From Nereocystis luetkeana (lineage: Eukaryota > Sar > Phaeophyceae > Laminariales > Laminariaceae): DNA of 64,000 nucleotides. Below, piece after piece: positions 2,860-59,148 of this stretch (the first letter of the stretch is position 1; every line of letters begins with the position of its first letter). Under the pieces are notes generated by a model. It searched no databases. It saw only the letters and a program-made list of their open reading frames with translations, and had not been told where the DNA came from. The position numbers were made by a program, and so were the translations under genes. The stretch spans positions 3,869,501 through 3,933,500 of the forward strand of contig JARUPZ010000004.1 in assembly GCA_031213475.1 (NCBI GenBank). The letters are read 5' to 3'.

Positions 2860-4020
2860 CGCGTTTAGGGCCTAGCTAGACATACCTGGATCTCGCTCAA
2901 AGCGCCGGCCTGCCTCAGGAGCATGCCCTCGAAACTCCTGCGGCGGAAGTAAGCAGAACAGGCGAATCAATCCGTATTTTGCAGCGTGGAGGGGTAACTC
3001 GTATTTCCTTTCGAGACACGAGACGAGACACGGGGCGCAAGAGGCCCGAGACACAAGAGAAGCAACAGGCGGCTACCCTCGGGCCCATGCGCAACGTCAA
3101 CCCGCGCTTATTGGTCAATGGTTGGTGGCGACAACTACCCCGCCCTGCCGCAGGCGGGCCGTGTTTGTTGGCTGCATTGCTGAAAAAAATGTGGTTCAAG
3201 ATGTGAAGTGGTTGAAAAGCTGAGGCAGTGCTCGCGACTGATTGGTTGACTCGCCCAGGCTTTGGGAGGGCGGTGGTACTAGCTACGAAACGCCACGAAC
3301 AGATGCCGTTTTCGAGCGCCAAAACGCGAAGCCGCAACACGTCAAAACAAACCGCACTCCCATCTGGAGGACAGTTTAGCACTTAGCCGATACTATGTTG
3401 GACGCACCCTGCGTACCTGGTACGGGCCAAGCTACTGTAGGGTGAACCCTACCCCAACCCCTTGAACCCTGACCCTAAACCAATCAAAAATCACCAAGGG
3501 TTGTTGACCAATGAAACTTCAGTATTTCCTTTCCGAAAAAGTGGCAAAAGCTCTACCGCCGATCTGCACATTCGGATGAGTCGCAAGGGAAATAAGAAAC
3601 TCGAGATTCGGAAACCGGTTAGCTCAAGATAGTCTAGAATGCATCCTCTCCCAGATAAGAAATCCAGTCTGAGTCCGGCATTTTTGTTCCCTGCTACGTA
3701 CTGTGGGTGTACTCGCAGTATGCTCCTGTTGCTGTTGCGTTGCAAGTGATACGCCATGGTATATACCACAGCTCGTTAGTATCGTTCCCTTCCGTACTGG
3801 TACTGGTGCAGTGCACGTATTATTGTACTGGTTTGTCTTCTGCCCTTGACCCGTTTTTTTCAGCCTGCGCTGTGACCGCGAGCGAAAATTCTGGAAATGT
3901 GCTATCAATAGTGTGAAAACATCAGCACTGCTGAACAAAATCCAACCCTCCCCATCCTGACGCATCATCCCTGCTTCTGACTGCTGTAGATGCCCTGTGA
4001 TATAGCCGAAACCAAGCCCC
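2860..4020. other. no recognisable gene
   Basis: No exon with convincing splice sites is visible. A short telomere-like stretch (CCCTGACCCTAAACC and neighbours) lies at about 3,440-3,480, and a TACCTGGTA motif at 3,414. Confidence 0.5.
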
Positions 4021-4026
4021 TCTCAC

Positions 4027-4151
4027 CTGTTCTCGTCCTGAACCCTCTTCGCGACGCCCTCGAGCTCGTCCGCCAGAACCAAGCGGACGAGGTCGTCTTC
4101 TTGCTCTACCGATATGGGGGAGGCTATCGCCGGCTGGCTGCTTCCAGGGAC
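4027..4151 (-). CDS. internal exon candidate of an unidentified minus-strand gene
   Basis: On the minus strand an AG acceptor (GACGGCAG) at 4,152 and a consensus donor (AACAG then GTGAGA) at 4,026 bound 125 nt open in one frame. It encodes about 41 residues: a Pro/Ser start, then acidic ISVEQEDDLVRLVLADE and LEGVAKRVQDEN, probably helical. Codons are GC-rich in third positions, as in the confirmed exons of this window. It could belong to the same transcript as the membrane-protein exon at 11,024-11,314, but no linking exon was found. No family recognised. The plus-strand frame over the same DNA is less exon-like. Confidence 0.3.
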
Positions 4152-4316
4152 CTGCCGTCAAGGGTTACACATACATCAGCGAGTTAGATACCAGGTACGT
4201 CGTAAAACTCAACGGTTTTATACATCCTATTGACTCCGCACATATCATCGTATTGATACAGCAGTAGTACGAGCACGATTCGTTTTGCGCCGTCAGCTGT
4301 TACTCCGAAAAAAATA

Positions 4317-4426
4317 TATTACGAGGGACCATAGTAATTAGGACCTACGGTACACTCAAAAACCTACATATTTTCCTATTTTTACCAACGATACTTGGTC
4401 GTATGTACTATGGTCCCCCCGTGATA
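4317..4426 (+). mobile_element. MITE family 1, copy 1
   Basis: About 110-bp element with terminal inverted repeats of the form TATTACGGGGGACCATAGT and its reverse complement at the other end, and an AT-rich asymmetric centre (ACAAAAACCTA, ATTTTTACTAACAATA). Twelve copies occur in this window. Each is flanked by or ends in TA, suggesting TA target-site duplication. No coding capacity. This copy is diverged (GAGGGACC). Confidence 0.8.
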
Positions 4427-5633
4427 GCTTTTACACTACAATACCAAAAAAAAGTCCTCCTCGAATTACAATTGGATTTCCCCCGGAACATGGTTTCAAT
4501 TATGAAGGGGCTCATAGGTAATAAAGTACATACAGTGGCAGGCTTCGACACGTACTAGCGGTACGGCCACGGCTCCGCCCGTGGCCCTAGCCCTGCGTTA
4601 CCGATTGTAGTGCGCCCACTAATGTGCTTCGTACGTACGTGCATCAGCTGATACTGATGATACTTGATACACGTACCCATGTGCATCTACGTACTGCTTG
4701 CTGCTGAACATACTGCTGAACGCGGTTACCTGCTGCACGTGTGGTAACCTACGGATGATGTACCTCCTGTAAATGTGCGTAACGACTGCGCCTAATGTTG
4801 TGCCTACAACTGTACGTACTGCATTAGTAGTACACATTGTTTCTATTAATAGGTCGTGCCAAGCATTTAGCAATATACCGGGTACATATATATACGAAAG
4901 TGTGTGTTCTTGCTGAATTCAATAGTCATATCCTCAATGCGGGGCAATGCGGGGCAATGCGGGGCGACGTTCCGGGCAGGTTTCTCTCTGGCGATATTGT
5001 GGTATACCCTAGAGTGCGCACCAGGGGGGTCGTCGGTACCCCGGGTCTACACTACACGGAACGGAGTGACGGACCTTGGGGTGTGACCTTAAACTTGTGT
5101 GTAATGAGGCGGTACTTTTTAGGGGAGAGGGGAGCTGGTATCCACATCAACAGCCGCTGCGTACATTGTATTGACCCCGTTGGGACTTGAGAAGGGAAGA
5201 TAAATATGTCGGAAATAAAATTATGGTTGCAGAATCAGCCACGTGATGCAAGCAGCCCAGGCCTATGGTAGGGCCTAGTGATGCATGCATGCTACGGTAA
5301 GGTTGCACCGGAAATTTTCTGGAACTCTTCACTTGAAGAGCTCGATACCCAACTAAAAATAACGACTGTTTTTATGTAAGGAGGCCAACCCGACGAGCCA
5401 TGTGACCTTAAGGTATATTACGGAAAAATTGTTTTGAAAAAATACGTGTTTCGTAGTACCTCCGTTGAGGTACCCCCGTTAGTCAGAAATATTGCCTTAT
5501 AAGGCAAAAAAGTGCTACCCCTATCGCAGCACGGGTCTACAGTAAATAAACATTTTGAGAGTAACCGTTTCTCACCGACGGGGTTCCTCGTCAACCATTG
5601 CACACCACGGACAGATAATCGATTCCCACTCGT

Positions 5634-5880
5634 ACATGATCTAGGTACTTCAAGGCAGATCTGTCCCCAATGATATTGAATGATCTAGCTCGTGTTGCCG
5701 GGTGGGACCCGTGTAAATTTGCACGATCTACGACATGTTTCCTGGGTTGGATCATGTGTTATGCAGATTCCTGCATAACCTCTCACAGCGGCAGGTGAGG
5801 AACTAGATTATCTACTACTGTAGAGATATAGATAGATAGATAGATAGGTAGGTAGATAGATAGATAGATCATGATATGTC
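5634..5880 (-). repeat. GATCTA-rich dispersed repeat, copy 1, with GATA microsatellite
   Basis: Shares, in reverse orientation, the blocks GATCTAGTTCCTCACCTGCCG, TCTGCATAA, a CAACCCAGGAAACA block and CCCACCCGGCAACA with copies at 10,345, 26,782, 33,900, 46,617, 47,660 and 63,785. A (GATA/TAGA)n microsatellite with GGTA variants follows at about 5,828-5,869. Confidence 0.65.
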
Positions 5881-6270: not shown

Positions 6271-6802
6271 ACAAACAGGACACAAAAACCCCAACCAAAT
6301 CGGTGCCAACCTTTTTTTTCGCAAGCACTGTGCCCCTCCTAACCTCAATATTTCGGGGTTGGGATATAACTCTCAGGAAGGTTCCATGGGTTGGTTCATT
6401 TATATATATATATGTATATGCATAGCAAACAGACGACAAGAAACCCAATCAAGTTGGTTCCAACCAAATTCTTGCGCAAACACTCTACAATGGGGTCATG
6501 TATCGGTCTTAAGGTACCCTTCAAAAGTCTCTGAAAGGCAAGGAAGGTATTGAGATACACATCTTCTCTTCGTGGCGAGGAAGGCATTGAGCCTCAGAAC
6601 ATTAAGTGGATGCCCCTGTCAGGCAAACACGCGTCGGCAAATGGGGCATGTAACAAGGAGTGTACAGCGTAGCGAGATCGATGTATGGCGCGCGCGCGCC
6701 GGCATGAATGAATGATGTCTGTGCTGCTGAACACTCTTTCCTGTTGATGGACGGTTGGTAAAGCCGCAAAACTCACCGTTTTTGAAGGTCGCTATACGAC
6801 TC

Positions 6803-6925
6803 TATTACGGGGGAACATAGTTAATAGGACCTGTGGTGTACACAAAAACCTACCAGGTACCAGGTATATATTGAGCCATTTCTACTAACAGTATTTGGTC
6901 CTATTAACTATGATCCCCCGTAATA
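6803..6925 (+). mobile_element. MITE family 1, copy 2, with two tandem 7-bp insertions
   Basis: Both terminal inverted repeats are intact (TATTACGGGGGAACATAG and ATGATCCCCCGTAATA). Compared with the other copies, which read AACCTATATATT in the centre, this one carries two consecutive CCAGGTA insertions at the TA (6,851-6,866). Confidence 0.85.
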
Positions 6926-6929
6926 GCAG

Positions 6930-7790: not shown

Positions 7791-7794
7791 CGCC

Positions 7795-10060: not shown

Positions 10061-10344
10061 GCAGCCACGAACAACTGCTAATTGTCCACTGCCTGTTGTC
10101 CACCATTCACCAACGCTCGCAGGTTGACGATAGTTACAAAAGTCCGGTTGCGCGAGTTCCAATAGCGAGAGCTATACGAGTACCATCTTCAAGTCATATC
10201 CGTATGCGTCATCTTCAACTGAAAAGTTGGTGTTGTACACCAGGTATATGCCTGCGTCGTACCTGGTACGTCGGTCCCCGTCTACACTGCTGTCAGGGCA
10301 GATGGACCTCTGACGTCATGTTCATGACCTACTTGAGATAAGGT

Positions 10345-11589: not shown

Positions 11590-14500
11590 ATGTCGGCGAA
11601 GCGTGCTCGAAGAAGTGCTCCCGAGCCTATGGCAAGCGCTCCCGAGCCCTTGGCAAGCGCCAGCATTACGGAGAAGCATGTCGGTGAGTACCTTTTATAC
11701 TCGTAGCAGTACTTTCATTTGAGCAGTTGCGTCCATAACCATACTTGGGTATCGCATCCGGTCCTGCACTGACCCTTGGTCAAATTCTCTCAACACCAAT
11801 AATTCGCCCTATACCACTCTCTGTCGTAGGTGCCCGTGCAGGGCGGTAAAGAATCAGCGCATCAGCCCGGACACTCTGGGTATGCGGGATGCTGATGGGC
11901 AGAAAGAACGAAGAACACACACATAAAATGATAAACCACTCTGTCCGGAAATGTAAGAAGTATTCAATATCAATATAAATATTCTAATGGTCTTTAAATT
12001 TACGGACAAATCGGTAGCGGTATGCTCCCATACTTATACTTTCAGTATCATACCCTCCTCGTACCCGTACCCCGGCAAGTAGCATCGAGTGGTCGTCGAC
12101 TGAGCGCGCCAACTACTCCCATGCCATGGCCATGACCAAAGAGGGGCACTCCCAGTGTTCTATTCTGCGTTGGGTGCCTACGTGGCCACTGGTTGAGATG
12201 ATCGGAGGGCCCACTTCTTGATGTCTTGCGCCCGTTTTGTGTGTTTGCATTCACCATGACGCATATCGTCGACTGCCCTTTAGATGAAGAAATGAAGAGA
12301 TCTCGGCGCTGTGAACTGTGAAACCGAGAAGTGCGTCGAAACTAGTATATACCTGGTACGTACCTGGTACCCCGTACGACTCGTACCGGTATTTGGCAAC
12401 CTGCGTGTGATACTGCCTACGATCACAACGCTGTCATCTGAAATAGGGCTGGACTTCACGGCTATTAATAGTTACTACCGGTAGTTGCCTGTGGCAAAAT
12501 AGCCCAAACTTTTACGGGGGGGCATAGAGACCTATGCCAATGGAAACGCGAAGTTCGAAAGTTTTTTTTCAAATATATTGCTTTAAAAAAACAGCCGAAA
12601 AAATTCTCGTACCGCCGCTGTGGGGAAAAAAGAGAAAAATGTTTGATTTCTTATTTTTTTCCTCCCAACGGCTGCAGGCGGCGCAATTTGTGTTTTTCTG
12701 GTTGCAAATTGTCAACACGGTGATAGAAACCAGCTCGTGCGACGATCGACGCTCGATCTCGACATAGACTCAGCCCACGGCCGACCCGCTCGGTATCTGG
12801 CAAGGCCAACGAATATAGATGACGGCCTCGAAGATATCAAGTGGATCCATGGTCTAGGGGACGAGAGCTTGCCGGCGGCGTCCTACGGTACCCTCCCAAA
12901 CCTGAAAAAACTCTATTTTTTGCCATTCGAGACGGATGGAGAAGTTTTGTCTTCTGTTTTGTGCAAACCAGCGGCCAAATGTTTTTTTATCATACACCTG
13001 GTCTGCTCCCGCCACATGACACCGGCCATGGTGTGAAGACGGTGACCCTAGGGTGGGTCGGAGCCCCTAACGAGCGCACTCCGTTCAGAATTCATGACGC
13101 AATCGTTGGTTTTGTTGATCGATGTCAGTCGAGGACTCGGAATCTCGCCGCTTCGAATCAAAGATCGGCCTGAGTTTTTCTCAAGCCGATGTTGGCCCAA
13201 CATCGGCCCCAGATTTGCTTTTTTCGGGCTTTTCCAAAAGTTGGGAACTTTTTATTTTTTGTACGTGGCCCATAGGAAGCGTGTTCTGAAACATTTTGGC
13301 GGGTATCTTTGAAATTCAAACTTTTTATTGAAACTTCGATGTACCATTGGCATAGGTCTAAATAGGACAAAATATTGTTCATACGAGGGGGGCATAGTAA
13401 ATAGGACCTACGGTACACACAAAAAAACTATATATTTCCCTATTTTTACTACAAACAGTAGCAATATTTGGTCCTATTTACTCCCCCGTAATATTAATAT
13501 TACGGGGGGCTATAGTTAACAGGACCAAATATTGTTAGTAAAAATGGTTAAATATATAGGTTTTTATGTATACCATAGGTCCTGTTAACTAGGGTCCCCC
13601 GTAATAGTAAAATTGGGGAAATATATAGGTGATTGTGTATACCATAGGTCCTACCTGGTATTTAATAAGCCCCCCCCCGTAATATCTGGTGTTCTGCAGT
13701 GTACGGCAGCAGAAACTGATACCAGGTAGGATTTAAAGCTCTCTTATTTAATAACAAGACTCACAGTCAGTCCAAGCCACTCACGCCCAAGTTAGATACC
13801 TGGTATAAAAGACGCAGAACGCAAGTTACCGCACGCAAATACTAGTATATTCGTACTACTGTAATAAGTGCTGCACTGTAGTGCCTACGTAACCAACTAA
13901 TCACTAGTCGGCGACTTGAAAGTCAGCCAACTCACGGCGCTATGAGTACGTCGCGATCGCACGTGCTACGCCTCATGAAGGGTATGCAGTACGTAGTAGG
14001 TCGATTGCTCCCCTGGGTGGCAGGAGTACCAAGGCCGACAGGACGATTTTACATAGACGGCCTTCTTGGGCAAAACTCTGACCAGCAGCCCAGCAGGTGC
14101 CGTACCTCTGGTATCCCTCAGAGGAGCGGCCCGCCGACGAGGCCTTCCCCGGCGCTCTCCGTAGCGCGCGCGCACGCCTCGGCACGCACCAACTTTCTTT
14201 GACCGAGCCCGGAAGAGGACGCCGCACAGGGGAGGCACTCGTCAGCCCTCCGACAACCTTGTCGTATATCAAGCCGGAGAGAGTGGAAGCTGCTCGACCG
14301 GTTCCTGGTTGTCCGGAAAAAGCAAGATCGGTACATATTCCCCATCGGTGGTCGTACACGCGCTGGTTTTCCCGAGCCAGCATAGACCGTCGTCACCTTT
14401 GTACCAAAAATGGGCCCCGTTGGGAAGCACCGCGGTGCTGTAGCGGCGTGTAACCCTTCCGCGCGCAACATACAGCCGTAGCCCGGTGCCTAAAAACGCT

Positions 14501-17500
14501 CACGGTTATGTCGAGAAAGCTCTCGCTGTTGCAGCGCCAATTCTCGTCCGGCAGTAGAGGCGGTTGGTTTGGCGGGGAAGGTTCGGAGCGCCAGCCCAAT
14601 ATACCTGGATATAGAGCAAAGTTTAGCTGGCGAGAGATGTTGTGGTCCAGCGCGTCTCGTACATCACCGCGATGAGCACCCGCCTCGACCGCGGACCGAT
14701 TGATGGCCGGTAATCTTCACACCTTGAGACGTTGGAGGGACGCCGACGCGTCTTCCGGAGCGACGTGACATTGGGGGTATTTCTTGGTGAAGTTGTTGAG
14801 CACGTACTGACTGTGTCAACCTTATGGGGAATGACCCTTTACGTTCTTGTTTCGTAGGATCATCCCCCGTAAGTGTCAACCCCACCGGCATATACTTCGG
14901 GATATCGCCGCTGTCGCAGAGATTTGACACAGGGCTTGCAGCATGCGACGGAAACTCGGCGGTGTGCATCCGCGCCGGGCATGTCTGATGAGCCCTGCTC
15001 TCGGAGTTTTGCTCGAATTTTGGCCACGCAGGTCGTTTCCATTGCACGTGCCCTGCTTCTGGCCCTGACGATGCCGCTGCAGTCCGTCCGCCTGCGGCTG
15101 AACCAGACTGGAACCGGAACTTTCGCCTAACGAGACCTCACAAGGCTCGTCCACGAGTCAACCTCCACCTTCTCTCGTCCGCCCTCGTTGTTCCTCCCCC
15201 TCGTCAATTTTTTCCAGGTGCACCGAGTGCACCCCCCACGTATCGACCACATCCGACGGCAAAAAATCGCAAGTAGTCGATGCGTGTTGGTGCAGTTGGT
15301 GAACCTGGAAGAGGTCAACGCGGGAGGGGGGGGGGTGGATGAAGGAGAGTGGAGGTCGATTCGTGGACGACCCCTGATGAGCCTTAGTGCAGCAGCATTA
15401 CGTACAGCAGGCACAGTACGTAAGCTCGATCGACCAGAAATCGTCCGCGTCCGAGTTGTACTGCGTATATTATGTGCAGCAGCAGTAGCAGTAGCGCTCT
15501 TCGTAAACTCAAAAGTCAACCTCACCTTGAGATCAGTTTCCAGTTCAGCGATTTCCGAACCCGATGGGTATCGTATATAGTGCCGGCGTCCCCGGTGGCT
15601 TGGTAGGTGGGTGGTCCGCGTGCATACCGAGATCAATTTTATAGGTTCGAGTCTCACCGAGTGCATACTGGTAGGGAATTTTTCTCGCATAAAAATCGAT
15701 TAGCGGAATTCGCGAGAGCGTAAGGCAGCAACGTTCGATAAAAATCGACGAGCAGTGGGAATGCTGAACCCTATGCGCGATGAAAAATGAAGGCACGGAC
15801 CGGGGGAGGGGAGTAGAGAAGGGACGACACCTGTGACCACGGCTTGTCCAGAAGATTGCTGAGGGTAAAACCTCCTACGAGTTAAGCTGGAAAGTAAAAG
15901 TGATTATTCAAACACATGCATACATATATATATATATATATATATATACCAGGTATTTATTTATTTTTTCTCAAGGTTCCCCTCTGGAATATGTTTGACT
16001 TGAAATCCCGAGAGTATCGCAAGTTGAAAAGGGGGAATATCATCAGGCGTTCTTTATACCGATATACTCGAGTATGATGATGTTTGACCTACGGCATGCG
16101 ATGCCATGATGAGATTCGACGATGTGTGCTTGATTACTGCGTTGGACGCAAAAATGCAGTCATGTTTGGGCCTCTCCTGCTCAGCACTGCACACACCTGT
16201 ACAAACACCGTGGCTGTCACAAAGACAAGAGCTTTGAAGCGCGACTGTTGTTGCCGCTGCTGCGATTGTACACTATTGCGGGGGGCCATAGTAAATAGGA
16301 CCAAATATTGTTAGTAAAAATAGCGAAATATATAGTTTTTTTTTTGTGTGCCGTAGGTCCTATTTAATAGGGTCCCCCGTAGTAGTCTGCGGTGTGCTGT
16401 GGATGGAATTCAGAGGGAGCGCGGTTCGAAGAGAGAAGGTGGGCTTGATGTCGTACTGCGCCGTCCACGGTTATTCCCAAAGCGAAAGCTATTGCACCGC
16501 TCTTGGGATTGTGTTCCTGGTTCCTAGGATGACAGGAAGCACGATGGCACACACGCACATATTCGAAGCACCCGTCGGTGACTGTAACAAAGCGAGGAAC
16601 TTGAAGTGCGGCTGCTGTTGTGCCGTGCTTTCCACACCGCAGAGAGGTTGAAGGGCGGTGTGATACAGACACTTGCGAAGGATATATATAGAGAGAGATA
16701 CAGCAGAGACGCCAAAAGCTAAGAATGTGACCGCCGTTTGGGTTTCTATGGTCCTGCGTGGCTCGGCGGGACGGAACGAAATCCCTTGGAAAAGGAGCCA
16801 GCTCGCGCAACTTTGGGACCCCAGAGTTCCCGCCACGGAGGTCGACCGGGGCCCAAACGTGCGCCGTAGTGTACGGGCGCGGTTCCTGCTTGCTCCGCCA
16901 CCGGAAGAGCGAGAAAGGACCAGCGGCCGGCAGAGAAGACCGTGCGAATGCGCACAAAAGCAGGGCTGTTCACACGTCGGGTCAAACCTCGCGGGTCGGG
17001 CCGAGTCGAGTACGGGTAGCCCGAACCGATCCGTGAGAGTTTGAAAACCTCCCGACCCGACTCGTGATATTCCGGAATCTTCCTGACCCAAACCGCGGAT
17101 CGGGTCATGACCCGTCAAGAGCTCTGCAAAAACGTGCATTTGGTACTGATGATACATAATTATACCATACTGCTGCGCTCCTAGCGTGGTCCTTACTCGA
17201 ACTTCACCAACGCCCCGGTCCCTGAATCGCGTTATTTTTTTGAAATCGTTCTTCCTTTTTTTGTTTGTGTCATCGTTTTCGTTGTTGCTGCAGACGCTAC
17301 CGACGAGGAACAAAGCAGTGACGACGAAGCCCCGGAAGAGGTGAGCGCCGCCGCGGCAACCGCTCTGGCGGGCCGTCGCAGAAAGGCCGAGCAGCAGGCG
17401 CGCCAGGCCGCCGCCGCTCCGAAGAGAAAGCGCGCGCGGTCTTCCAAGGTTGGAAAAAACGCCTCCGATGCTGATGGTGATGCTGTCGCGGGGAAGGGGG

Positions 17501-19389: not shown

Positions 19390-20827
19390 CGACAGAAAAT
19401 TAATAAATGAAAATGCTCGCGTGTGTGCTCGCTGTGAATGAATGCCCGCTGACCCACACGGTTAATTTTTTCCGGGGGCTAGTCGTGTTTTTCGCGAATG
19501 CAGGTTAGTTTTTCGGGGGGGGGCTTGCGCGTGTTTTCTGATGTTTTTGTGTTTGCATCAGCTGTGTCAGAGGTAGCAAGTGGTCCGGATTGTGTTATTG
19601 TATCTTACTTGAAATTCAGGCTGAACTTGGGAGTTGTGGTCGTTGCGCGCAGATTCGTCGCTCCTCCTGTGGGTAGACATTTCTTACGACGATGGTGGCC
19701 AAATAGAAGTTCGTTTGGTTTTCAACACTGCTCAATTAAGGGGGAGACAACAACTTCCACTGTTTTATATTTAAAATACACCAGGTAGTCGTTAGCTCCT
19801 GCTTCATGCCAGGTATAATATCTAAACCTGCGCAAAGAAGCTGCAATGAACTGCTCGGTGTGGTGTGAGTAACCGGCATCTCGCAAATGTCGGCCGAGTT
19901 GGTGCTGCTGCCGTGTTGTTGTGTTGTTGTGTTTGTTTGCTCTCCGACAGTATGAAGCGTGCCAAGGTAAGCGCCAACGCCAATCACCTCTGAACATCCA
20001 TTGGAAAAGAATAAAACCAAGGGAAAATCGGACAGGGGGAGGAATCTCATGTACGCGTCTACAGCAGCTCCGCTCTATCTAAATCTGGCTTACTACGATT
20101 ATCGGTCTGCGGTTCTCGTTCTCCACCTCTGCTGCCTTTGCTCCACCTTCCCTCTCGTTACGCACCCGATTATCTGTAACTCTCTTTGATCCTGTTTTTT
20201 GTTTTAGTTGCTGTTGCTACTTTTTCCTTCTACCCAACGCTATCCGTCACAATCCGAGGTCCGTAAATCAAAGGTAATCGTTCACATTTTCAAACACAGG
20301 TAGGTGTCAACCTAGAGGGTCTTCATCAGTGTTGTATATCGCGTTTTGCGATCACGATTATTATCGCGATTTCTGGTGAGCGTGATCGAAAAATTCTGAC
20401 GCGCGATCACGATCATTGGATAAAAGCCTTCGATATATATATATCTACTGCACAGACATCCAGCAAGACTGCTGGCTGCCACTTTCTTAGTTCCGGCATG
20501 CACTACTCGCCAACGATTGTGTATTCGTTTTCATGTATTGCTGCGCGATATGTGTCTGGTGATTGTGTTGTGACGAGTGGAAGGGTGGTCGAGTTCATAC
20601 CTGGTAGGTGGTGAATTAATGTTGGGAGTAGAGAGAAACGAATACAACAACCAACTCAACAGGCCAACATCGCTTATGGGTCATGGAAACCCATGCATTG
20701 TATAGATGCAAAGAGTCTGGTTGTGGGGTCGTGGCTGAACGTGGATCCCAGGTACCCAAATCATTGGTTTCGTTTCTTCCGTGTACGAAGGCATTCCTGT
20801 GCGGCGTGCACCTACCTATCCTATGCA

Positions 20828-20863: not shown

Positions 20864-22460
20864 GTGAGACGCAATCGATGGTGAGAATGGTTCAAACTTG
20901 CTCTCGGCTGCGCCGAGTGCTGAGCACTTCCTTGACTACTGCTCTACAGTAGATACGTTGGGTTCCTCTTGATTTGCCCCACACTTTGTGCCCGAATATC
21001 GCGATATGCAACACCCAGCACAACAACTAAACAGCTGTGCTGTGGTTTGGGTATGATATGAGGACGGGTGTATGCGCGTACCTACTCTGTAATACCAGTA
21101 ATATTCTGCGTACCAACGAACGTCGTACGTAATAAAATACTGTAAACCCTGTTGTTGGCACTCGAGCTGGACGGTGGACGGGCTCAAACAGTGTAGAGTG
21201 ATTCGAGGCAAACACACACATATACGACTGGGAGGGGCGCTGTTCGACTAAAAGGGGCAACAGAGTCGGGAGATCAGACAGACCCCCAAGAGAGGAAAAG
21301 TCTACAAAAATGGGTATAAGGCTGGCCCCTGCACCCTGCCACAGAAAGCATCGCAGGTGTTGGCACTCCCTGATTTTTTGTGCCACGCGCCCCTAAAAAT
21401 GATAAATCATTGTCGACTTGTCGCAGCGCTGGCATACTGCGTTCTACAGGAGGAGCACCTCCTCTGCACACTACCATGAGGCGCTCCCTTTGTGTGGGTG
21501 AGCAAAGGAGTACGATGTGGGCTACCCCCCTCGCCTTCGTGTGGCCTGCCATCAGTGCAGTGCGCCATACGAGTTAATCTGGTTGATCTTGTTTTTTTTC
21601 ACTCAAAATCAAGGAATTGTCACCCCCAGCAGCCTCGTCATGACACAAGGAGGCACAGACGGGACGGCCAGCTTCTCATCCCCATCAAGCGGGCAGGATC
21701 TGTATATTTCTAGCGTAGGGTTGCTACTCGGAGCCAGCGTGTCCTGGCCCATGTGTGGGCTGGGAAGTGAGCAAACGACTGCTGCCGCTGCTGCTGCGTG
21801 TGTTTTTACTGCTACTCCTGTTTTTACAGAAGTGAACAAACTGACAGTCCCGCAGCATGTCTTTTTACCATCTGTGATGCAAGCACGAACAGGCTTGCCA
21901 GTTTTCTACTGGGCTTCATACCTGGTACCTGGTGCAGGTGAGTACGATGCTGTGCGCACGTGCGCACACATCACACCGGGAGTCCAGTACGTACAGGACG
22001 CCCACAAAGAAACCAAGCTCTAAGAAAGACAGGCTGAGATTCGTGAGAAATATGAAAAAATCTCGTATCTCCCGACGCGTTTATCTTGAAGTTGGTGTCC
22101 TGGTGTAGAACACACTTTTCCCCCTCCAAGTAAGAATTCCAGGCTACAGACAGTAGTAAACGAGCATCCCTGTTTATTATCTCCTGTACCGTGTATAGCT
22201 ATTAATAGTACCAGGTAGGTAATACTGCTGCATACGTAGCGACCCCAGAATTTCTTCCTTCCCGCGAATCTTGACCTGGATTTCTTGGTGTTCGTTTCTT
22301 ACTACAGTAATGGTCCCTCTGCACCGTAGTGCCCGTATGCGCCAGCCAACAACAGCAACAAAACACCAACAGAGTACCTGGTAGATCAACAGAGTAGACC
22401 CAATGATAGCTGCAGACAGACGCGTATATAACTCAAAATAATTTTATCAAGACACAGCAA
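19390..22460. other. intergenic region without a supported gene
   Basis: Holds a (TA)n microsatellite at about 20,829-20,860, TACCTGGTA motifs (20,598; 21,919; 22,209; 22,375) and a CTATTAATAG at 22,199. A tiny first-exon candidate (MKRAK, 19,952-19,966, followed by GTAAGC) could be the start of the TraB transcript, but nothing links them. An unassigned 168-codon frame at 21,517-22,023 lacks support. Confidence 0.4.
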
Positions 22461-23935: not shown

Positions 23936-24412
23936 TAACCTTCACCCTAACCCCCGACACTAACCCTAAACGTAAACCCTAACCCTAACCCTAACCCTGA
24001 CCCTAACACTACCGCTTAAAACCTCAACCTTGAGCTAGACCCTAAACCGCAACCCCCAACATTAAACCTTAGCCCTTAGCCCTGCACCTTAGCCTTGAAC
24101 TAAGCGCTATCCCTAGACTCTAACACTAAACATTGACCCTGCACGTTAACCTTAGTATAGAGCAGACGCTAACCCTGAACCATATCGCTAACCCTGGATC
24201 TCGACCTTACTCCTTACCTCGAACCCTAACACCGAACCCCAAACCTTTAACCCTGCACCTTAACCTTAATTTAGAACAGACGCTAGCCCTAAACCCTAGC
24301 CAGACACCTTAACCCTAAAACGTAACCTTAAACTAGACCTTAACCCTAAACTACACGGTCACCTTAGTCTATACCTGGTACAATAGACGCTAACCCTGGA
24401 CCCTAGCCCCAG
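23936..24412 (-). repeat. interstitial degenerate telomere-like array (CCCTAA)n
   Basis: About 475 bp of AACCCTAA-type repeats: perfect for three units near 23,975, then degenerate with CTTGAACTAG and CCTGCACCTTA variants. More scraps follow at 24,590-24,635. It lies in the intron before the first confident TraB exon. Smaller TTAGGG-like scraps occur at 3,440, 31,555 and 35,815. Confidence 0.75.
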
Positions 24413-38063: not shown

Positions 38064-38203
38064 GGAGAATATCTTCTCGGAAAGTCGGAAATTCGTCCGG
38101 AGGGGTGAATTTCATCTTGCGCGTTACCTGGTACCTGCGGCAGTGGTGGTGTACTGTACGGTGTGGTGGATGCTCGACGGATCTGTCGGATTTCGGTTGT
38201 TTT

Positions 38204-39575: not shown

Positions 39576-42500
39576 ATGCCTCCCAATCGACATGATGCTA
39601 AGCTGGAGCGCCTGCGTCTTGCATGGCAGGTCGACTCCGTAGAGGCGGTCCCCAAGGCTCAAGAGGTGACAACACGTTGTTCGTTTTATTTGTGTCCAAT
39701 TTCGCAATTTTTGAAATTCTCAAGCTTTGTACAGCGGTGCTGGCGTGCGGCATGAGCAGCAGCAACGGTCGGCTCTCTGCGCACATGAAGGAAGCTATCC
39801 TGTGTACGGCAGTATCGAGCCTACACTAAGATAAGACGGGGTGGTATGCCCCACCGTATGCGACTCAGACCAACGCGTTGTGCCGGACTCCTACGCCCAG
39901 ACTAGGCGATGGTGCCCTTGATTGTTAGTTTTGGTGGATTGTCAAAAGTCTTTTCAATGCTAAATCCTATATATGTACTGGCACGTACTCCAACATGCTT
40001 CGTACCTCCAGTACTAGTACGTACGTAGAGAAGTTGTACACCAAACACCAACACTGCAGTTGCACAAATACGAGTACCTGCTACTCGTATACCTGGTACT
40101 CGTATATTCCACAGGTACATTTACTTCGCGTAAAGTTTACGTAGAGAAGTTGTGCATGAAACACTCCACAATACCTGCTACTCGTATATTTATATACCAC
40201 AGGTACATTTACTTCGTGTACGTACAGCAGTATGTACTCGTAACTGCTGCTGTGTGTGGTGTATACTGCGGTACTTATAAATTAAAAAAACAGCTGTGAT
40301 GAGATCGAGGATTCGGTCGACACTACTAGCTGTATCTTTGCAAGCTGTGTGTGACCCTTCGATCGCATTACGAGTACGGGTTGTACATGGTCTCATGAAT
40401 GAATTGCAGTCCTCCTACTTCGAAGTATGAGTATGACCAGAACCGGAGCAAGAAATTGTCCCAGAATGCCGCAGCCCATGTTCCACCAAAGAGGCAGCAG
40501 TGTTCCAAGAAGGGAGTGTCTCCCCGCCCAGCCGGTCTAAAATTAGTGCATCGCAAAGAAAAACAGAGACAAGGTATTTACTGCCGTGTAGACAAGTTTC
40601 CAGCAAGGTCCATTTTTACCAGGTACTTAATTTCCAAGTTGACTGTCCCTGCACTGCTGTACTTGTACCACAGGTAAGTTGCGAAAGTACTCTTGGTTCC
40701 TTGAAGCCCCGTCTGTGATGTCGATGTCGCACATCATCTTTTTAACCAACCAACCAATCAACGAACAAACCAACTATGACAATCAATCTACCACTCAGTC
40801 AATCCAATCAATCAACCTATCACTAATCATTCAATCAATCAACCAATATATCCATCCATCCATCCATCCAATCCATCAATTCATCCACCGACCTCCGTGT
40901 CCCGCGTTTACTGCTTCTGCTCGTGCTGGCAGTTATGTGAAGATTGTGTTTCGGCGTGAACCTCGGCCCAGTTTGGACAAAAATGTTAGAATGTACCGGT
41001 ACCCTGCTACTTGAATTTCAACATAAAACCCCAGCCCTAACCTCGACCGCCAGAGATTTCCATCGGAACGAAATGTAATCAGGAGTTAATGCGGACTATC
41101 AACTATCTATTCATACTCTAAGCTGAACCAAGCCGTAAACACCGCCGGTACTGGTTGTTGTCGCCGTCTTCCAACAGTTCCTGCGGATAATGGGCTTGAA
41201 GTGCAGACCGGGGGCCCTGGGCAAGGGCGAGCCGTGCCGAACCGAGATCGCCTTGGACCTCGCCTGCCGTGCCCTCGGCTGCCCCGTCCCTCACAAGACC
41301 GCCGTCCAGCTCTGTGGAATACCCGAGGCTATCTATCTGGCTGCTCTGGGCACAGCGCAGAGGTATTATTTCCAAGTGCTACTACTGCTGCTACCAAGTG
41401 CTACTGTTGTCATAGTCTCTGCTACTGGTTTTGCTTCTGAGTTTTGTTGTTGCTCGCACTGCTATATTTGTTAAGGCTATGTGCCGGCACTTTTGTGAGG
41501 TTGCTATAATTTGCTGCTACTGACATTGGTACAGCTACTGCTACTGCTGATTTTTTCGTTTGTGCTACTTCTATTCCTACTGCTACCGCTGCTGATATTT
41601 CTACTGCTATTGCTACTGCTACTGTTACTGCTCAATTCCCCTTTGAACCGACCGTTACTGATATTTCTACTGCTACTGCTACTGCTTAGTTTCCCCAGCG
41701 TACCGACCTACAGCAATGCACTCTGAATGGTCTTGTTTTCGCCGCGGACAGGTTGCTCGGGGTGCAGCGACGGTATAGCTGTAAGGAGATCGCCCAATCC
41801 GTCGGCGGAGCACGGGTGGGAACGATGGCCACCTCTGAGCTGAAGCGATACAAGGTCTGCCACCGCTACTGCTGCTGCTGCTGTGTAAATTGTCTTGTTC
41901 CCATTAAAAAGAGTAACATAACCAGTGCGAAGCCCGAGTATTTCTGGCAGTTTCCTTTGGTGACTCGAAATATCCATGGTTGATCTCATGCCGACGGAGT
42001 TGTTGATTTCTGGATGCACGTCAGCATGCAGAAGCAGGCGCGGTGCTCACTCCGTGTACCATGCCATCCGTGTCACAAGCGCAAACCTGCGCGAGAATGG
42101 CCGGCGTGACACAACGAGTACCTGCCTGTTTGGAGAGGCCTAGTGGCTCGCGTGTGGGACTAGTTCTTTTTTTTTTCTTAGTTCTGCCCTTCAGCTTTGG
42201 GCGGCGTTGCAAGATAGCGACTGGCTTCGCCAGCACTTACCCGGTACGGGAGATGAGCGCCGGGGTGCGACACCCGGCGGGTTCCCTTCTTTTTTTTTCT
42301 TGTACGGGTTTTCTTCTCACGTGGCGGAAAACGCGTGAGATATTAATAGCAAAAGTTCGACGAGAATCAACGGGCAGTGGGAATGCTGAACTCCTCTGCG
42401 CGGTAAAAAATGAAGGCACGTACCGAGGCGGGGGGGGGGGGGGGGGGGGGGGGGGGGGAAGGAAGACACCTGTGTCCACGGCTCTATCCAGAGAGCTGGA

Positions 42501-44552
42501 AAGTGAAAGAGGGGGCTAAAAAAACTTTAACATGAAATAAAATAGGTTGTATGATTCGCGCTTGTAACGCCAGCGTCATTCGCCAGCTACCGTCGCAACG
42601 CAGGCATCTTTCGTATTCTATCTTCCAGGTTCCGTCTTGCGCATTCCATGTTCCATATTCCATTCATTTTCCATCACCCTGCGATCGATACATGAGCAAA
42701 GGTGTCAGGAGACGGCGCTTTCGCCCCTTGCCAAACACCTGTCAAAGCAAACGCCTTGACAGACAACATTGACGGCCAGAACCCGGGGACAAGAAATAGA
42801 AGCCACCGTTTTTTTGGGAAATGTCTCTCACCTTTAGAAACATAATAAAATGGATGTGTATTGTGTCTCCCACGTTTTTTTTTTTTGTACGTATTGGACA
42901 GGAGCGGTTCCTAGCGTCCTACCCAACGAGACAGGCGGCCAGCATCGATCTCGACAACACCGTCTACGCTGTCGCGGCGTTCTACCTGTGCGCCAGGAAG
43001 ATCAAGGTGAGTATGCTTTTGTTCATGCTATTTGGTTTGCTTACCCCCTCACCGCCCTCCCCCAGCCGAGGCGTTTAGCGATAGAGGCCCACCCCTACCT
43101 TTCGGAGGCTTCTCACCTAAGGAGCTCCATACCTCACCCGAAAACTGACTTGAGCGAACATCAAATTTTGCATCCTGAGGAATAATCCCATGGCCCAGGT
43201 ATACAAAAACGTCATTTTTCGACACCAGATTGACGTTCCGACGATTTTGCGATAAGAAACCCGCCAATCCGCAAAATATTACTGCGGAAATGTGCTACCT
43301 CTATTGAAGAACGCGTCAGCCCCTCCCGCCCCCTCCGCTACACTGCACTCTTTCTACGCCATTTTATTTTTTGTCTGGAACTGCATGCACTTTTTTGGCG
43401 ACAAGCTATTTGGAAGTAGTGGGCTTTGGTTTTGCAATGGTGAAAGAGTTGTCACTACGAGGTACCCAGGAATGCATTTTCACGCCTCGTACCAGTAGTA
43501 CTTACATCACCAGTGATTATTGTTATTTTATATTATTATTTTGTATGGGATAATAATGTGTGCACACCCCAATAGGAAGAGTAACCAACCTTTTATGTAA
43601 CTGTAGTATACCTGGTACCAGGGTATACGTTTTCACGCCCCCCCATGCCGGCTGAACGAAGCTGAAGCAACGTGTGGTGCCCTTTCTTCCGCTCGTCTTT
43701 CTCTGTTCGATCGAGTTGATACTACAAGCGTCTAGAAAGGGCAACAAGTAAATTCTCGGAATATTCCTGAGATTTCATTTATTCCGAGTTAACGCGAGTT
43801 ACTAATTCAAGCCGCGCCACAATGGGGATCCCTTTCGAGTTTATTCCCGAAGCCGATCCTACGACCGAGCGTCCGCCGACCGAAACCCATTTACTCGATT
43901 TTCCACTTTTTTAGAACCCAACCAACGCACACAAGTTGACGACAGTTACAAAATATGGTGCTGGGCGATTTCGCAGCCCCAGTTTATACTACGTGCCTGG
44001 GTATATTTTTTGTATGTTTTATGAGCTTTCTCAAACCCCGCTTGGGCTTGCCTTCTCACCCCGCTTGACGCCCTTGCCCAGCTCACGCTAACCGAGGATA
44101 CAGCCGAGGGGTCACGTTCAGGGAGGATAAAGCTGGGTCGCTGGATACGATACCGAACATACCTTACCCTCAGCCAATCAGACCCAATCAACCATTGTAT
44201 GTATGGGGTTAGGCATCTTCGTCTCTTACACGGCAGGCGCCAACCATAGTGGTGAACTCTGTGTATCGGTACGTACGTGACTCTTTTGGGGGGGGGGTTC
44301 TGCTTTCAGCAGCCGCTCGGAAAAAAAAAAATCCCGCGAAATGCTGCCCTGTTTTTTTTGTTTTTCTTCTTGTTTTGCGTTTTTAAGCTTTTGGGCTGTC
44401 CGGTTTTCGCGATTCGCGATTGCACCGCCGTGGAATTATATGTTGGTCTGCGTCATCAAAATTATGATACCAGGTATTATAAAATCCGTTTTTTGAGTCA
44501 GGTACAGAGCGGCTCGTGCGAGTGGTCTACAGTCGGCAGATAGCATTGGGGT

Positions 44553-44583
<31 letters not shown>

Positions 44584-47500
44584 GTGTTTTTGTTGTTGTC
44601 CTTACATTACCTTATGGCCACAAAACCGTGCAGTCCGTGGTGGCAGGACAGACTCCAACAACTCTGGAGTGGCAGAATACCTCGGGGAAAAATAAAAATA
44701 GGCAAAGAATAATACACATGGTACGTGAAGCACATCTACACCTCAGACGAAAAAGAAAAGTGACGTCCGCGCACGTACGCATCAGGTACATGCGGTACGC
44801 TGTACAAGTCGCCACGGAAACCGAGAAGACCGCATAATACCCGGAAGAAATACAAAACGGGATGAAAAAGCAACTCGACGTCGAAAAATCGAAAATCAAA
44901 AATCAAAAATCAAAAAGGGAAGAGAGAGAGAGAAAACAAAACAAGCAAGAAAGCAAGAAAGCAAGAACGCAAGAAAGCAAGAAGAACACACACACAAAAG
45001 AATGCGCAGATTTTCGCAGATTGTAGGCTCGCAAGCTACGCGAGGGGTCTAGAATAGAGACAAGAACCAAAAACAAACATACTTACTCCGCTACCAAGAA
45101 GACCAGGGAAGCAAAAAATAAGCTTCATAGACAAAAAACGACAAAAAACGAACTTATATCCCCTCCTTTACCGCTCACCGCATCCGGTTGGCGCCCTGGT
45201 GCCACGAGCGCATCGTCTGGACTGATTTCGTCTTCTTTTTTTTTTTTTTTTCGAGCAGCACCCGGTCAACAAGCAGCGGCTGCTGGAGCTGTCCCTCGTG
45301 CGCGAAGCGGAGCTGACCGGCGTCTGCCGAAGCATGCTGGTGGGTGGAACTCGTTAATTCGTCAATTTCGTAGAGGTGTAAGGCGACAGGGCTTGACGAC
45401 AAATAAGTAATCGGTTGGTGCTGCTAGCCAACAAACTGACTCTATTACGGTGAACCATAGTAAATAGGGCCAAATATTGTTAGTATAAAGGGGTAAATAT
45501 ATACCAGGTAGGTTTTTTGTGTGTACCGTACGTCCTATTTACTATAGGTCCCTCGTAACAGTCGGCCGACTTGCCGACTTGAGTCAGGCGAGCGAAGCGA
45601 GCCAAATCGCCCCCCGTCGCCGGAGGGGCCCCGCCCAAAAATATACAGTGTACCAGGTATCCAGCATTCAACTACCCTTCCTGCAACCATGGAAACCCAA
45701 TCACTCGGATAGTCGGCACCTCCGGGAAACGACTACCAGGTAGCTACCAGTTCAGCGAAGACCTATTAATAGTTGGCGACTTGAGTCGTACCGACTCACA
45801 GCTCTCTACGAATTTGTGAATTATATATGTTTTGACTTGGCCATATACACTACCAGGGTAGTCAGTACCAGGAACACAGCGACCAAAACAAAACGACGCG
45901 TGCGATCGATTTTAATATATCCAAAGCGTCTACGTACTCGTAGGAAGAGCTTGCAGCAGTATGAGTACGACCACCATGTCGTGCGTGCGCCGTATATGCG
46001 AGCTTACTGCGCTGCCCTTCGGGCGCAAGCCTACCGCAGCAGCCTGGGGTATAAGTTTTTCATGTGGCCGAAGCTGTAATGCCGTAAATAAAGAGCGTTG
46101 AGTGTCGCACGCACAGGGGTGACATCGTTTTTGCCAGCGATCGTTTTTTTTCCCTAGGCTGTTTACGGGTCATGATCCAGCCCACGGGTCGGGTCCGGAG
46201 GTCTTTGAGACCTCACGGGTCGGGCCCGGCCGGGCCCGAAGGTACTCGAACGCTCACTGGTCGAGTCCGGTCGGCTCGGGTCGGGTTAGGTGACCCCATC
46301 AGGCCCGACCCGCGAGTTTTGACCCGCAACCCGCGAACAGCCTTGTTCTTTTCTCGACAGCGATAAGGGTGCTATATAGAGCCGAACATAACACTATCGG
46401 AAGGCCCTGTCTCTCTCTCTTTCGACCACGTAGATCTGTCTGAAAACACGTTTGTTAGGTGCTTTGGCAACCGGTCCCGCTCTTGGAAATAAAGCCGGAG
46501 CGCTGACAAAAAAAAAGAAACGATCGCACGCACCCCTTGTTGCGAACTCGAACGCTATTTACAGTATTCCTTCATTTTTTTCGCCCCGTTTGAAACGTCG
46601 TCGGACATTGATACAATCTACAGTACTCGTAGGTCATCTACCGTAGATTATAATCTGCCGTTAAGAAATGTTGTGCAGGATCTGTATGGTACAAGGCCCA
46701 GCCCAAGGCACATGTGCTAGATCATGGAGATTTGACGGAGGCTTTTGCCCTGAAGGGTCGAGATAATGAAAATGGGAATCCGTGGCATGTCCGATGCGTG
46801 CACTGTTGCCAACCCCTTTATTCTACCTCAGGATTCCAAGCAAGTTATTTTTCTGTAAATGTGTTAACTGGACCCGCAGTTCCTGGTGTACGTAGGCCCC
46901 GACAGGGTACGCCGGGGCCGGCAGGAACGAGTCTGGCCTGGCTTGATTGACTTGGTGATATTTTTTCGACGTTTTGCGCCTCATTCTTATGTATATATAT
47001 ATATCGCATCGCACGGAAACTCACTGTAGGGTTTACTATGTGTCCGGCCCGTAGTTTTCTGAGAAAACGTTGCCCCCTGTTGCGACGATATGTATACTAC
47101 CATGCACGCCAACGTGATTCACTACGCACCGTCTGGACGGCGCATGTACTTTCACCTCCAGGAACTCTGCTACAGCACGCTGGGCGTGTCTATCAGCGAC
47201 AAGCCCAGCAAGGAACGCCTCGAAATGTTGGCCAAAACAGCTGCCCTCACCGGTGGTAACACCGCCGGACAAAAGCCTCCATCCGGCAGTGGCAACACTA
47301 CCACCGCCACCACCGCCGCTGCCGCCGCGGAAGCTCCCAGCGGGAACAAATCCGGCCGTTTCGGCACCGCAAGCGGCGGGAATGGTTCCGGTTCGTCGTT
47401 CGGCAACAAGCGCAGAGGTGGTGGCGGTGCCGGTGCGGCCGCCGGGAGCGCCAGTCGCCGGCCGATTCCGTTGACGCGCCTTGTGGGGCCCGGGGGGGAG

Positions 47501-51794: not shown

Positions 51795-51799
51795 GACTG

Positions 51800-53880: not shown

Positions 53881-53881
53881 G

Positions 53882-56963: not shown

Positions 56964-57095
56964 AATGGTGAAGGGAATCACAGCACGACGGTTTGCGGCC
57001 TATTATGAAACAGGGCAAACTGAACAGGGCGGCCGTAGGACGGGAACACGGCAGTTTGCTTGCGACTGCAGTGTCGGAAACCAGGCGTCAAATGT

Positions 57096-57170
57096 GATTG
57101 GTGTTACCTGCGCAGCTATAGGGGTAAAAGATCGATCGATTACCCAACCCAGGATAATTCTTATGAAAGT
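57096..57170 (-). repeat. tRNA D-arm-like repeat, copy 3
   Basis: GTGTTACCTGCGCAGCTATA, GGGGTAAAAGATCGATCGAT and TTACCCAACCCAGGATAA: about 85% like copy 2 over 60 bp. Confidence 0.5.
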
Positions 57171-57174
57171 GTAG

Positions 57175-57600
57175 ACTACAAGCAAGACAAGTCTAGAGTT
57201 AAACTTAAGTACATAAGTAATGGTGTTGCTAATGTAGATGTGCGGCGGCGGTGTGTTTTAAAGTGATTATTTTCTGTTTTTGGCAAGGGAGATGGAACCG
57301 TCCACTCCACAACCCACGCTACTTCATGAACGGACGCCAAAAAGGCAGAGGACACATACATACATAGCTATGTAAACCTCCGGCCACCTCCTCCGGACCC
57401 CCTCGGCCAAGTTTCGGCCGTTGCAATTATCCTCGCCTGCACAGGGCGCCGCCCTCTGCCCCTACGCCCCCTATTCATCATCATCCGATGATGATGAGCC
57501 CTCCTTGCACTTCCTCTTCGCCAACACTATCTGGCCTCTGCTACTTAGAGACACAACTTTAACTTTTTTTTAGACGTCGTGCGGTCACTACCCCCCCCAC
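57175..57600. other. no recognisable gene
   Basis: Nothing coding is supported. CATCATCATCCGATGATGATG at about 57,477 is a short hairpin. Confidence 0.4.
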
Positions 57601-57626
57601 CCGTCCCCGCCCCCTCCCCGCCGGCT

Positions 57627-57960
57627 TCTTCTTCTTCTTCTTCTTCTTCTTCTTCTTCTTCTTCTTCTTCTTCTTCTTCTTCTTCTTCTTCTTCTTCTTC
57701 TTCTTCTTCTTCTTCTTCTTCTTCTTCTTCTTCTTCTTCTTCTTCTTCTTCTTCTTCTTCTTCTTCTTCTTCTTCTTCTTCTTCTTCTTTTTGTTCTTCT
57801 TCTTCTTCTTCTTCTTCTTCTTCTTCTTCTTCTTCTTCTTCTTCTTCTTCTTTTTGTTCTTCTTCTTCTTCTTCTTCTTATTCTTCTTCTTCCTCTTCTT
57901 CTTCTTCTTGTTCTTCCTCTCCTTCTCCTTCTTCTTCTTCTCCTTCTTCGTGTTCGTCTT
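57627..57960 (+). repeat. (TTC)n / (GAA)n triplet expansion
   Basis: About 150 bp of uninterrupted TTC, then TTC with TTG, TTA and CTC interruptions to about 57,960. Plus frames read poly-Ser, Phe or Leu; minus frames read poly-Lys, Glu or Arg. One minus frame stays acidic beyond the repeat (SDSSEFDSGVENEEEDAVED, about 57,975-58,035), which could be a real Glu-rich exon with an acceptor such as GACGTCAG near 58,045. Without neighbours it is not called. Confidence 0.95.
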
Positions 57961-58515
57961 CCTCGTCGTCCTCCACCGCATCCTCTTCTTCCTCGTTCTC
58001 GACGCCGCTGTCAAATTCACTACTGTCAGATCCTCTGAATTGCTGACGTCGCCCCCAATACGTTTGTGTCCCTTCCTGTCTTTGGTCAAGGTTCCTCCCT
58101 TATTTTTGCCACGAACTGACACCTGAATCGAGTGCGCGCACCACAACTGCTCCACCCCTTCGTTTAAGATCATTTTTTAACAGTGCGCCCACACCTTTCT
58201 TTTCAACTTCGCTGACAAAAATACTCGCAACAAACGGTTGACCGTCCGAGCCCTTGCTCCTCTCAGCTTCGCGGCTGTGGCGTGTGCTTGGTGTCCACGT
58301 GGTTCTTCATAGAGTGCATCCATTCCCAATGGTCAGGACAGAATAAGGACTTCAGCGGCGCATTTGTACTCGGTGAACTCGAGGAAGGTGCCTGTGGTGT
58401 ACTAAGCTAAGCTCATGTCGCTTGCGCTACTCACGTGGCCTAGACTGCCGGACTGCTTGGTCTTTCAACAAATAACTTGTCGTAATGCACACCAGGTAGG
58501 AATTAGTGTTGCGTT

Positions 58516-58604
58516 GTTTTAGAACCGCAGTCCCCTTTTGGGGACAAACCGCTCAATTTTCAAGTAGTTTGTCCCCGAAACGGGACTGCGGTTCTAAAGG
58601 GGTC
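58516..58604. mobile_element. MITE family 2, copy 2
   Basis: TTTTAGAACCGCAGTCCCC and GGGACTGCGGTTCTAAAGG around TTTTGGGGACAAACC and TAGTTTGTCCCCGAAAC. Confidence 0.8.
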
Positions 58605-59148
58605 AAGAAGGATTTAGTATACCAGGAGAATCCTCCCCCCCCCCCTGGCGGGTCCAAAATGAAAAAATGAAGTGTGGGTCAAGGAATGGTTTGTTCGCCT
58701 ATACGTACCCTATACCCTTGATTCATGACAAAAACATCACGAATCGTGTTTTTTTTTTTGTTCGTTCGCCAGGAACGGGGCCCTTACTATTTGCCGATTC
58801 GCCATGAGGAGAGTGTTCCACAGTAAACATTCATTGAGATTTACCAAAACACGTGTACCTGGTATACTTTACTTGTACATCCATCAAGACCGGGTATGAA
58901 GACGTACGTATCTGCTGCAACATTTACAGGGAGTACCTCTCTATCAATAGGATGACGTGTATACAAACTTTCCAGAGTGTCTTTTTGTGTGCCCTGGGGC
59001 CCTCACTTGTGAACTGCTATAATACGACACAACAACCTTTCGATTTTGTCTTTTGTGTACCCGAGCCCTCACGTGCGAACTGCTGTTTCAGTGCAGGAGA
59101 TTATATTGGCCGAACTCAATCGGAAATCGAGCCTGTAAGGGTCGATCT

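Follow-up and report, generated by a model that had tools for sequence, protein, structure and literature searches.

The motif in the window and in the genome

The window analysed here is a 64-kb stretch of the genome of Nereocystis luetkeana (G000:C4:3869501-3933500, in an assembly of 465,085,209 bases and 1,987 contigs). It was judged eukaryotic and is repeat-rich, with a GC content of 48-57%, and it holds 12 copies of a miniature inverted-repeat transposable element (MITE family 1), a hAT element and 27 exact copies of the 9-nt motif TACCWGGTA (W, A or T), whose probable origin as the excision footprint, or scar, of a transposon is our subject. A Pfam search (E 1) with 9 of the 43 listed open reading frames (ORFs) of the window gave no match, as did an Rfam scan of the window, and a tRNA scan found no tRNA there.

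A preceding sequence-only reading had reported these 27 sites, their strong enrichment and their unrelated contexts. Each of its coordinates is exact, and the sequences flanking the sites are indeed unrelated. Only 0.28 sites are expected in the window by dinucleotide shuffling, where none of 100 shuffles reached 27, and 0.55 under an order-3 Markov model. With a low-complexity filter applied, the only commoner 9-mers in the window are words of a TACAG microsatellite. Merging two exact tandems leaves 25 scar chains. The same reading had named a normal genome-wide frequency as a result that would undo it; the assembly contains 182,395 copies of TACCWGGTA, about 105 times the 1,744 copies of the reversed pattern, which served as the genome-wide control. 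The density of one scar per 2.37 kb in the window is close to that of the genome (one per 2.55 kb), and the window is therefore typical. When up to one mismatch is allowed, the count rises to 367,383 against 66,255 for the control, giving an excess of 180,651 exact and 120,477 one-mismatch sites. Under a crude model of even accumulation and neutral decay, the scars, decayed ones included, would total about 400,000, the oldest being about 0.22 substitutions per site old; an equally crude single-burst model would place them at about 0.08 substitutions. A search of the open-access literature, at the level of titles and abstract openings, found no account of the motif.

Insertion at TA dinucleotides in MITE copies

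MITE family 1 is about 110 bp long, has the ends TTACGGGGGACC and is apparently flanked by a TA duplication. Alignment of the 12 window copies revealed TA inserts of 14, 7 and 7 bp in the three copies that the sequence-only reading had singled out (6851-6866, 13652 and 45502); the remaining nine lack inserts of this kind. The copy at 13652 departs from the MITE consensus right after its scar. In a larger set of 23 copies, 18 from the same genome and five on contigs of metagenome-assembled genomes (MAGs), six copies carry scars and 17 do not. The six scars occupy four TA positions; the motif is thus an insertion and not an ancestral part of the MITE. Two of them lie at position 67 and two at position 30, which in the inverted repeat mirrors position 93; certain TAs are therefore hot spots. 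Five of the six scarred copies have plain inserts of a multiple of 7 bp, and the sixth (L011:2828) has four more extra bases beside its scar. The copies with scars at position 67 (6851 and 45502) share an identity of 0.74, whereas each has a closer match among the scar-free copies (0.80 and 0.81), and they are not nearest relatives in a poorly supported MITE tree. The scars in the MITE thus have a duplicated TA around the remnant, with a single TA at the empty sites.

A survey of insertions and deletions in 48 MITE copies, which left out copies overlapping the pattern by which their locus had been selected, gave 40 inserts of at least 3 bp in 20 copies. Four of the five inserts of exactly 7 bp were TACCWGG. 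Exact TACCWGG inserts occurred in eight copies, one of them doubled and some with adjoining changes, and a decayed one in another copy. Three further copies had 4-nt versions: a clean CCAG (L057), a clean CCGG (L059) and CCAG inside a 14-bp insert (L074). The remaining inserts were mixed, some of them being alignment noise in diverged copies.

These inserts bear on whether the motif could be a protein-binding site that selection has spread or maintained, for example a regulatory or chromatin palindrome. Its palindromic form and genome-wide occurrence would suit such a role, but inserts of a multiple of 7 bp at TAs, present in some MITE copies and absent from others, contradict it. The one-mismatch excess, two-thirds the size of the exact one, is also what is expected if most copies decay freely, although the comparison does not amount to a neutrality test. 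We consider a binding site very unlikely.

Size variants, tandem chains and a probable footprint mechanism

The scar core is palindromic apart from its odd central W, and this form is required by the pairing of two identical overhangs. We consider it very probable that TACCWGGTA marks the exit of a cut-and-paste transposon, of the Tc1/mariner type, that targets TA and cuts with a mostly 5-nt stagger. Insertion of the element would duplicate TA. On exit, the non-transferred strand would be cut inside the element at both ends, as a rule 5 nt and at times 4 or 6 nt from the end. If the element ends in 5'-CCAGGG, the resulting 3' overhangs, CCAGG, would pair at CC/GG with a central A-A mismatch, and host repair of the centre to A or T would yield TA-CC(A/T)GG-TA. 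Overhangs of 6 nt would give CCAGGG/CCCTGG or, with the mismatches repaired separately, CCCGGG or CCATGG; overhangs of 4 nt would give CCAG/CTGG, CCGG or CTAG. The TA of an old scar would often be reused by new insertions, producing tandem chains. Each hop would leave one scar, so that a few elements hopping for long could leave hundreds of thousands.

The variants of the motif agree with most of these predictions. TACCAGGGTA, one base longer than the scar, occurs 11,422 times in the genome against 409 for the control, and TACCTGGGTA 1,578 times against 362. The context AAATATATA-CCWGG-notT is found at 295 places against two for the control. Among the first 100 of these listed, 68 read CCAGGG and seven CCTGGG, a few of these places being segmental duplicates of one another. 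Had CCAGG and CCTGG scars simply decayed by point changes, the two forms would be equally common. Thirty loci fetched from the 295 places include 16 with CCAGGG, of which 13 are TA-CCAGGG-TA. We also tallied the variants in 273,505 bases from 60 sources, after dropping overlapping loci and masking the selecting match in L053-L082. Among 6-nt cores, CCAGGG/CCCTGG was found eight times and CCCGGG five times (two of these in one tandem, L049), and the classes not predicted came to five in all (CCAAGG 2, CCACGG, CCTGGG/CCCAGG and CCGAGG 1 each, and CCCCGG, CCGCGG and CCTAGG 0). Among 4-nt cores, there were 28 CCAG/CTGG, 13 CCGG and six CTAG, against 12 of the comparison CAGG/CCTG; CCGG and CTAG are palindromes. 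Mismatch repair of overhangs 4-6 nt long would fit both the asymmetry between CCAGGG and CCTGGG and the CCCGGG, CCAG and CCGG scars, given an element whose ends, as we infer from these classes, would read 5'-CCAGGG. The excision footprint proposed from the window alone is thus supported by its 4- and 6-nt variants, CCATGG being too rare to tell.

A different origin of the inserts would be the direct addition of a 7-bp unit, CCWGGTA, at TA, either as a micro-insertion by a transposase or polymerase or as an extremely small mobile unit. This would account for the enormous excess of scars and for the failure, described below, to find a parent element; a fixed unit, however, would not yield 4-, 5- and 6-nt versions with a directional bias, and we regard direct addition as unlikely.

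The sequence-only reading had explained tandem scars by repeated visits to the duplicated TA. Among the first 100 places listed in the genome, all near the start of contig C1, eight pairs are spaced by 7 bp and share a TA, three of them with mixed centres. Given some 3,165 further TAs in a stretch of 64 kb, a rough estimate predicts one or two pairs of this kind per 100 scars. Another locus (L109) carries a chain of four scars whose centres are mixed. These chains with mixed centres support the idea of repeated visits. Tandems and part of the abundance could also have arisen by slippage during replication or from a small number of founder scars that were duplicated: five of the eight pairs have equal centres, the site at 40090 lies within a 15-bp tandem duplication, from a point change in which it may itself stem, and a tandem array at G000:C1:1305185-1308362, where TACCAGGGTA recurs every 528 bp, multiplies that variant on C1. 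The mixed centres of the other three pairs, the presence of only two exact tandems in the 25 window chains and the unrelated flanks nevertheless make such an origin of the tandems and of part of the abundance highly improbable. Target choice is not uniform: of 56 scar chains, 31 lie at purine-TA-pyrimidine, a context shared by 35% of other TAs (p=0.003); for the 25 window chains alone, the figures are 14 and 37%.

As for age, the scar-bearing MITE copies differ from one another by 12-30%. At L043, a pogo-like element whose ends match perfectly over 27 bp, counting the TA, is inserted into the TA of a scar, and at L084 a hAT element is inserted into another scar. Scars in diverged MITEs and beneath these two insertions indicate a long activity. 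They also bear on the idea that a domesticated transposase removes TA-bounded elements on a developmental programme, in which case the sequenced genome would show the joined ends. TA-bounded eliminated segments are known in ciliates, and the scars here do exceed the visible elements. Many scars, however, are mismatched and two are interrupted by later insertions, so that at least these were inherited and not remade in each generation; moreover, the data give no sign of a second genome form. Programmed excision is, in our view, extremely improbable.

Search for a parent element and comparison with known systems

The sequence-only reading had noted that the mobile element is not visible in the window, and our search agrees: no convincing inverted pair of TACCWGG ends lies within 10 kb there, the best two being chance pairs of scars 9-10 kb apart. 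For the genome, we fetched 32 stretches from the first 100 listed of 7,805 candidate ends (TACCAGGG without TA at the scar position) and the first 100 listed of 193 candidates following the favoured target TATATA (61 in the control). Among eight of the latter that were fetched, no repeated TA-duplicating family was found. Judged from the fetched fraction, resident copies appear to be rare or absent relative to the scars.

Several candidates were rejected. A 980-bp element with CCAGGGATGCG ends in a perfect inverted pair once looked like the parent, but it is a hAT element whose true end is CAGGG; it has 8-bp duplications (GTTGTTTT and GTATATAC) in two of its three copies, the flanks of the third mismatching, and its target happens to end in TAC. 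Its window copy (38204-39184, 981 bp) has the ends CAGGGATGCGTATTTCC and the duplication GTTGTTTT, and was judged non-autonomous. It is 99.5% identical to the copy at L084 on contig C1, and from this identity the family looks young. Since the scars duplicate TA only, a hAT element with an 8-bp duplication and CAGGG ends does not explain them. A 0.37-kb element (L107) was judged to be hAT on the same grounds, and three copies starting with CAGGGCTTTTCGCGGG in differing flanks (L108-L110), seen at their left ends only, fit hAT as well. The other fetched repeats with CCAGGG ends lie inside larger repeats.

The genome has 28 matches to the pogo-like transposase model PF03184, and two pogo/Tigger-like families with TA duplications have the ends CAGTACCGGCCCGCTAGTAAGAAAC and CAGTGGGGGGCCCTATATAGTGCAGG (L030, L033, L043, L045 and L052). 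Around the transposase matches there is no matching CCAGGG pair in the loci L020-L052, most of which reach only 1.5 kb on each side.

Several points weigh against a Tc1/mariner-type footprint. The variant classes fit a core made of the terminal bases of an element with CCAGGG ends and a mismatch-resolved centre, yet no resident element combining TA duplications with such ends was found in the fetched stretches; the repeated families with CCAGGG ends are hAT, hAT-like or interiors of larger repeats. The reversed control gives more ends (38,183) than the 7,805 candidates, a control count that the presence of GGGACCAT in the MITE probably inflates. Those pogo-like elements whose ends were recognised have CAGTACCGG... 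and CAGTGGGGGG..., with CAG at the end, and were rejected as parents. The Tc1 model PF13358 had no match in the genome, nor did the mariner model PF01359, an absence that is weak because its control was also silent. Among the variants, TACCTGGGTA still stands at about four times its control, TACCCGGTA is mildly enriched (nine in 273 kb), and the predicted CCATGG occurs once in 273 kb. Being as rare as the unexpected classes, CCATGG neither helps nor hurts the model of CCAGGG ends. Finally, Tc1/mariner footprints are described as 2-4 bp long (PMC7913693) and those of a pogo element as 0-4 bp (PMC9976928), whereas the major class here is 5 nt, with 4- and 6-nt classes minor. Because the parent element was not found, its membership of Tc1/mariner is deduced from the footprint. 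It would work in the manner of that superfamily, but with a remnant longer than 2-4 bp and neither element nor transposase in hand, it cannot be filed there.

The footprint core of Sleeping Beauty consists of the end bases of the element with one mismatch. The TA duplication and the short core with a central A/T are shared with Sleeping Beauty and Frog Prince, for which the footprint is given as C(A/T)GTA (PMC3878927, Table 1). The core of 5 nt (range 4-6), CCWGG, and the extreme number of about 180,000 exact scars are not. The likeness to Sleeping Beauty drawn in the sequence-only reading thus stands for TA and the central A/T and fails for the 5-nt core; a footprint TAC(A/T)GTA, from CAG ends, is not what we find. 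In Triticeae, Stowaway elements, which are Tc1/mariner MITEs, leave TA-flanked inverted-repeat remnants of 1-4 bp, and an older footprint there had its TA reused by a new element (PMC1925063). The scars share both features, but Stowaway footprints were described at single loci, whereas here one 5-nt footprint dominates genome-wide. For the brown alga Ectocarpus, 17 Mariner-Tc1 families with 11,912 mostly non-autonomous copies are reported (PMC12477816); the main text of that paper contains no word beginning with 'footprint' or 'excision'.

A bolder possibility is a transposon, or a repurposed transposase, that quits almost every site, leaving several hundred thousand inherited 5-nt scars, perhaps 400,000 with the decayed ones, and hardly any resident copies, with a longer stagger than those described for Tc1/mariner. 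We put this forward tentatively, with doubt slightly outweighing belief. If true, the scars would amount to an unbroken record of hops. Most work on excision footprints deals with single loci, and the abundance here, about one scar per 2.5 kb, would permit genome-wide measurement of break repair, target reuse and hop rates; the size and sequence variants already hint at mismatch-repair outcomes. This abundance also suggests that resident-element counts can badly underestimate transposon activity. Should the parent be found, its 5-nt stagger would extend our knowledge of TA-targeting transposases.

Feature coordinates, a second motif and other observations

Table 1. Scars, MITE family 1 copies and related motifs, in window coordinates
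Feature	Position	Strand	Basis or remark
Scar TACCTGGTA	3414..3422		exact motif match
Scar TACCAGGTA	4189..4197		exact motif match
MITE family 1 copy with tandem scar	6802..6929	-	copy alignment
Tandem double scar TACCAGGTACCAGGTA	6851..6866		clean 14-bp insert at MITE TA
Scar TACCTGGTA	10260..10268		exact motif match
Two scars 11 bp apart, TACCTGGTACGTACCTGGTA	12350..12369		exact motif match
Partial, diverged MITE family 1 copy with scar 13652	13605..13690 (end approximate)	+	
Scar TACCTGGTA	13652..13660		7-bp insert at TA of MITE inverted repeat
Scar TACCAGGTA	13720..13728		exact motif match
Scar TACCTGGTA	13797..13805		exact motif match
Scar TACCAGGTA	15947..15955		end of TA microsatellite
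Scar TACCTGGTA	20598..20606		exact motif match
Scar TACCTGGTA and tandem one-mismatch unit TACCTGGTG	21919..21934		
Scar TACCAGGTA	22209..22217		exact motif match
Scar TACCTGGTA	22375..22383		exact motif match
Scar TACCTGGTA	24372..24380		two nearby diverged repeat copies (79%, 69% identical) without scar
Tandem double scar TACCAGGTACCAGGTA	25929..25944		exact motif match
TACCATGGTA, possible 6-nt variant	29180..29189		inside TACTG microsatellite, not a clean insert; position from alignments
Scar TACCTGGTA	38125..38133		exact motif match
TACCTGGTA in near-perfect 15-bp tandem duplication	40090..40098		may not be an independent scar
Scar TACCAGGTA	40617..40625		exact motif match
Mixed tandem, TACCTGGTA then 6-nt variant TACCAGGGTA	43609..43625		
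Scar TACCAGGTA	44468..44476		exact motif match
MITE family 1 copy with scar 45502	45443..45565	+	
Scar TACCAGGTA	45502..45510		clean 7-bp insert, same MITE TA as 6851
Scar TACCAGGTA	45651..45659		exact motif match
Scar TACCAGGTA	45734..45742		exact motif match
6-nt variant TACCAGGGTA	45851..45860		
Scar TACCTGGTA	58856..58864		exact motif match
MITE family 1 copies	4316, 6802, 13382, 13491, 13605, 16274, 28369, 32912, 45443, 50363, 51574, 51680		
TACGAGTA/TACTCGTA sites	1132, 7628, 10175, 37318, 40069, 61715		examples of 20

A second motif, TACGAGTA/TACTCGTA, occurs 20 times in the window, where 0.99 (shuffling) or 2.9 (Markov model) are expected, and, with both strands of the genome counted, TACGAGTA shows an enrichment of about 8.5-fold (82,203 against 9,641). 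It may be a TA footprint of 4 nt left by another transposon family. Minos, a Tc1/mariner element with CGAG ends, leaves TA-CGAG-TA, which has the form of TACGAGTA; this is a likeness of the footprint alone. No convincing case of a clean insertion of TACGAGTA was found, and CTCGGCATC, considered as a MITE end that could yield TACTCGTA, proved to be a repeat within a larger inverted repeat.

The positions 29055-29435 are occupied by a long CTGTA/CTGTG microsatellite, partly in rows of TA-CTG-TA, which is broken by TACCATGGTA. The ORF at 59873-60808 had no Pfam match; we take it to resemble the end of the reverse transcriptase of a long interspersed nuclear element (LINE). Together with the microsatellites of the window, this ORF appears to resemble those of brown algae. 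In IMG/VR, scans for MITE family 1 and for the LINE protein gave no match, and a scan for the double scar gave nine contigs with two or three motifs each, taken as chance. MITE family 1 is also present on two bacterial MAG contigs, L010 (JALZVB010000211.1), which has one MITE at its end, and L011 (JALZWD010000061.1), which has about 3.6 kb of host DNA with three scars, two of them within MITE copies. Both look like chimeras of bacterial DNA and the DNA of a host related to the organism of the window.

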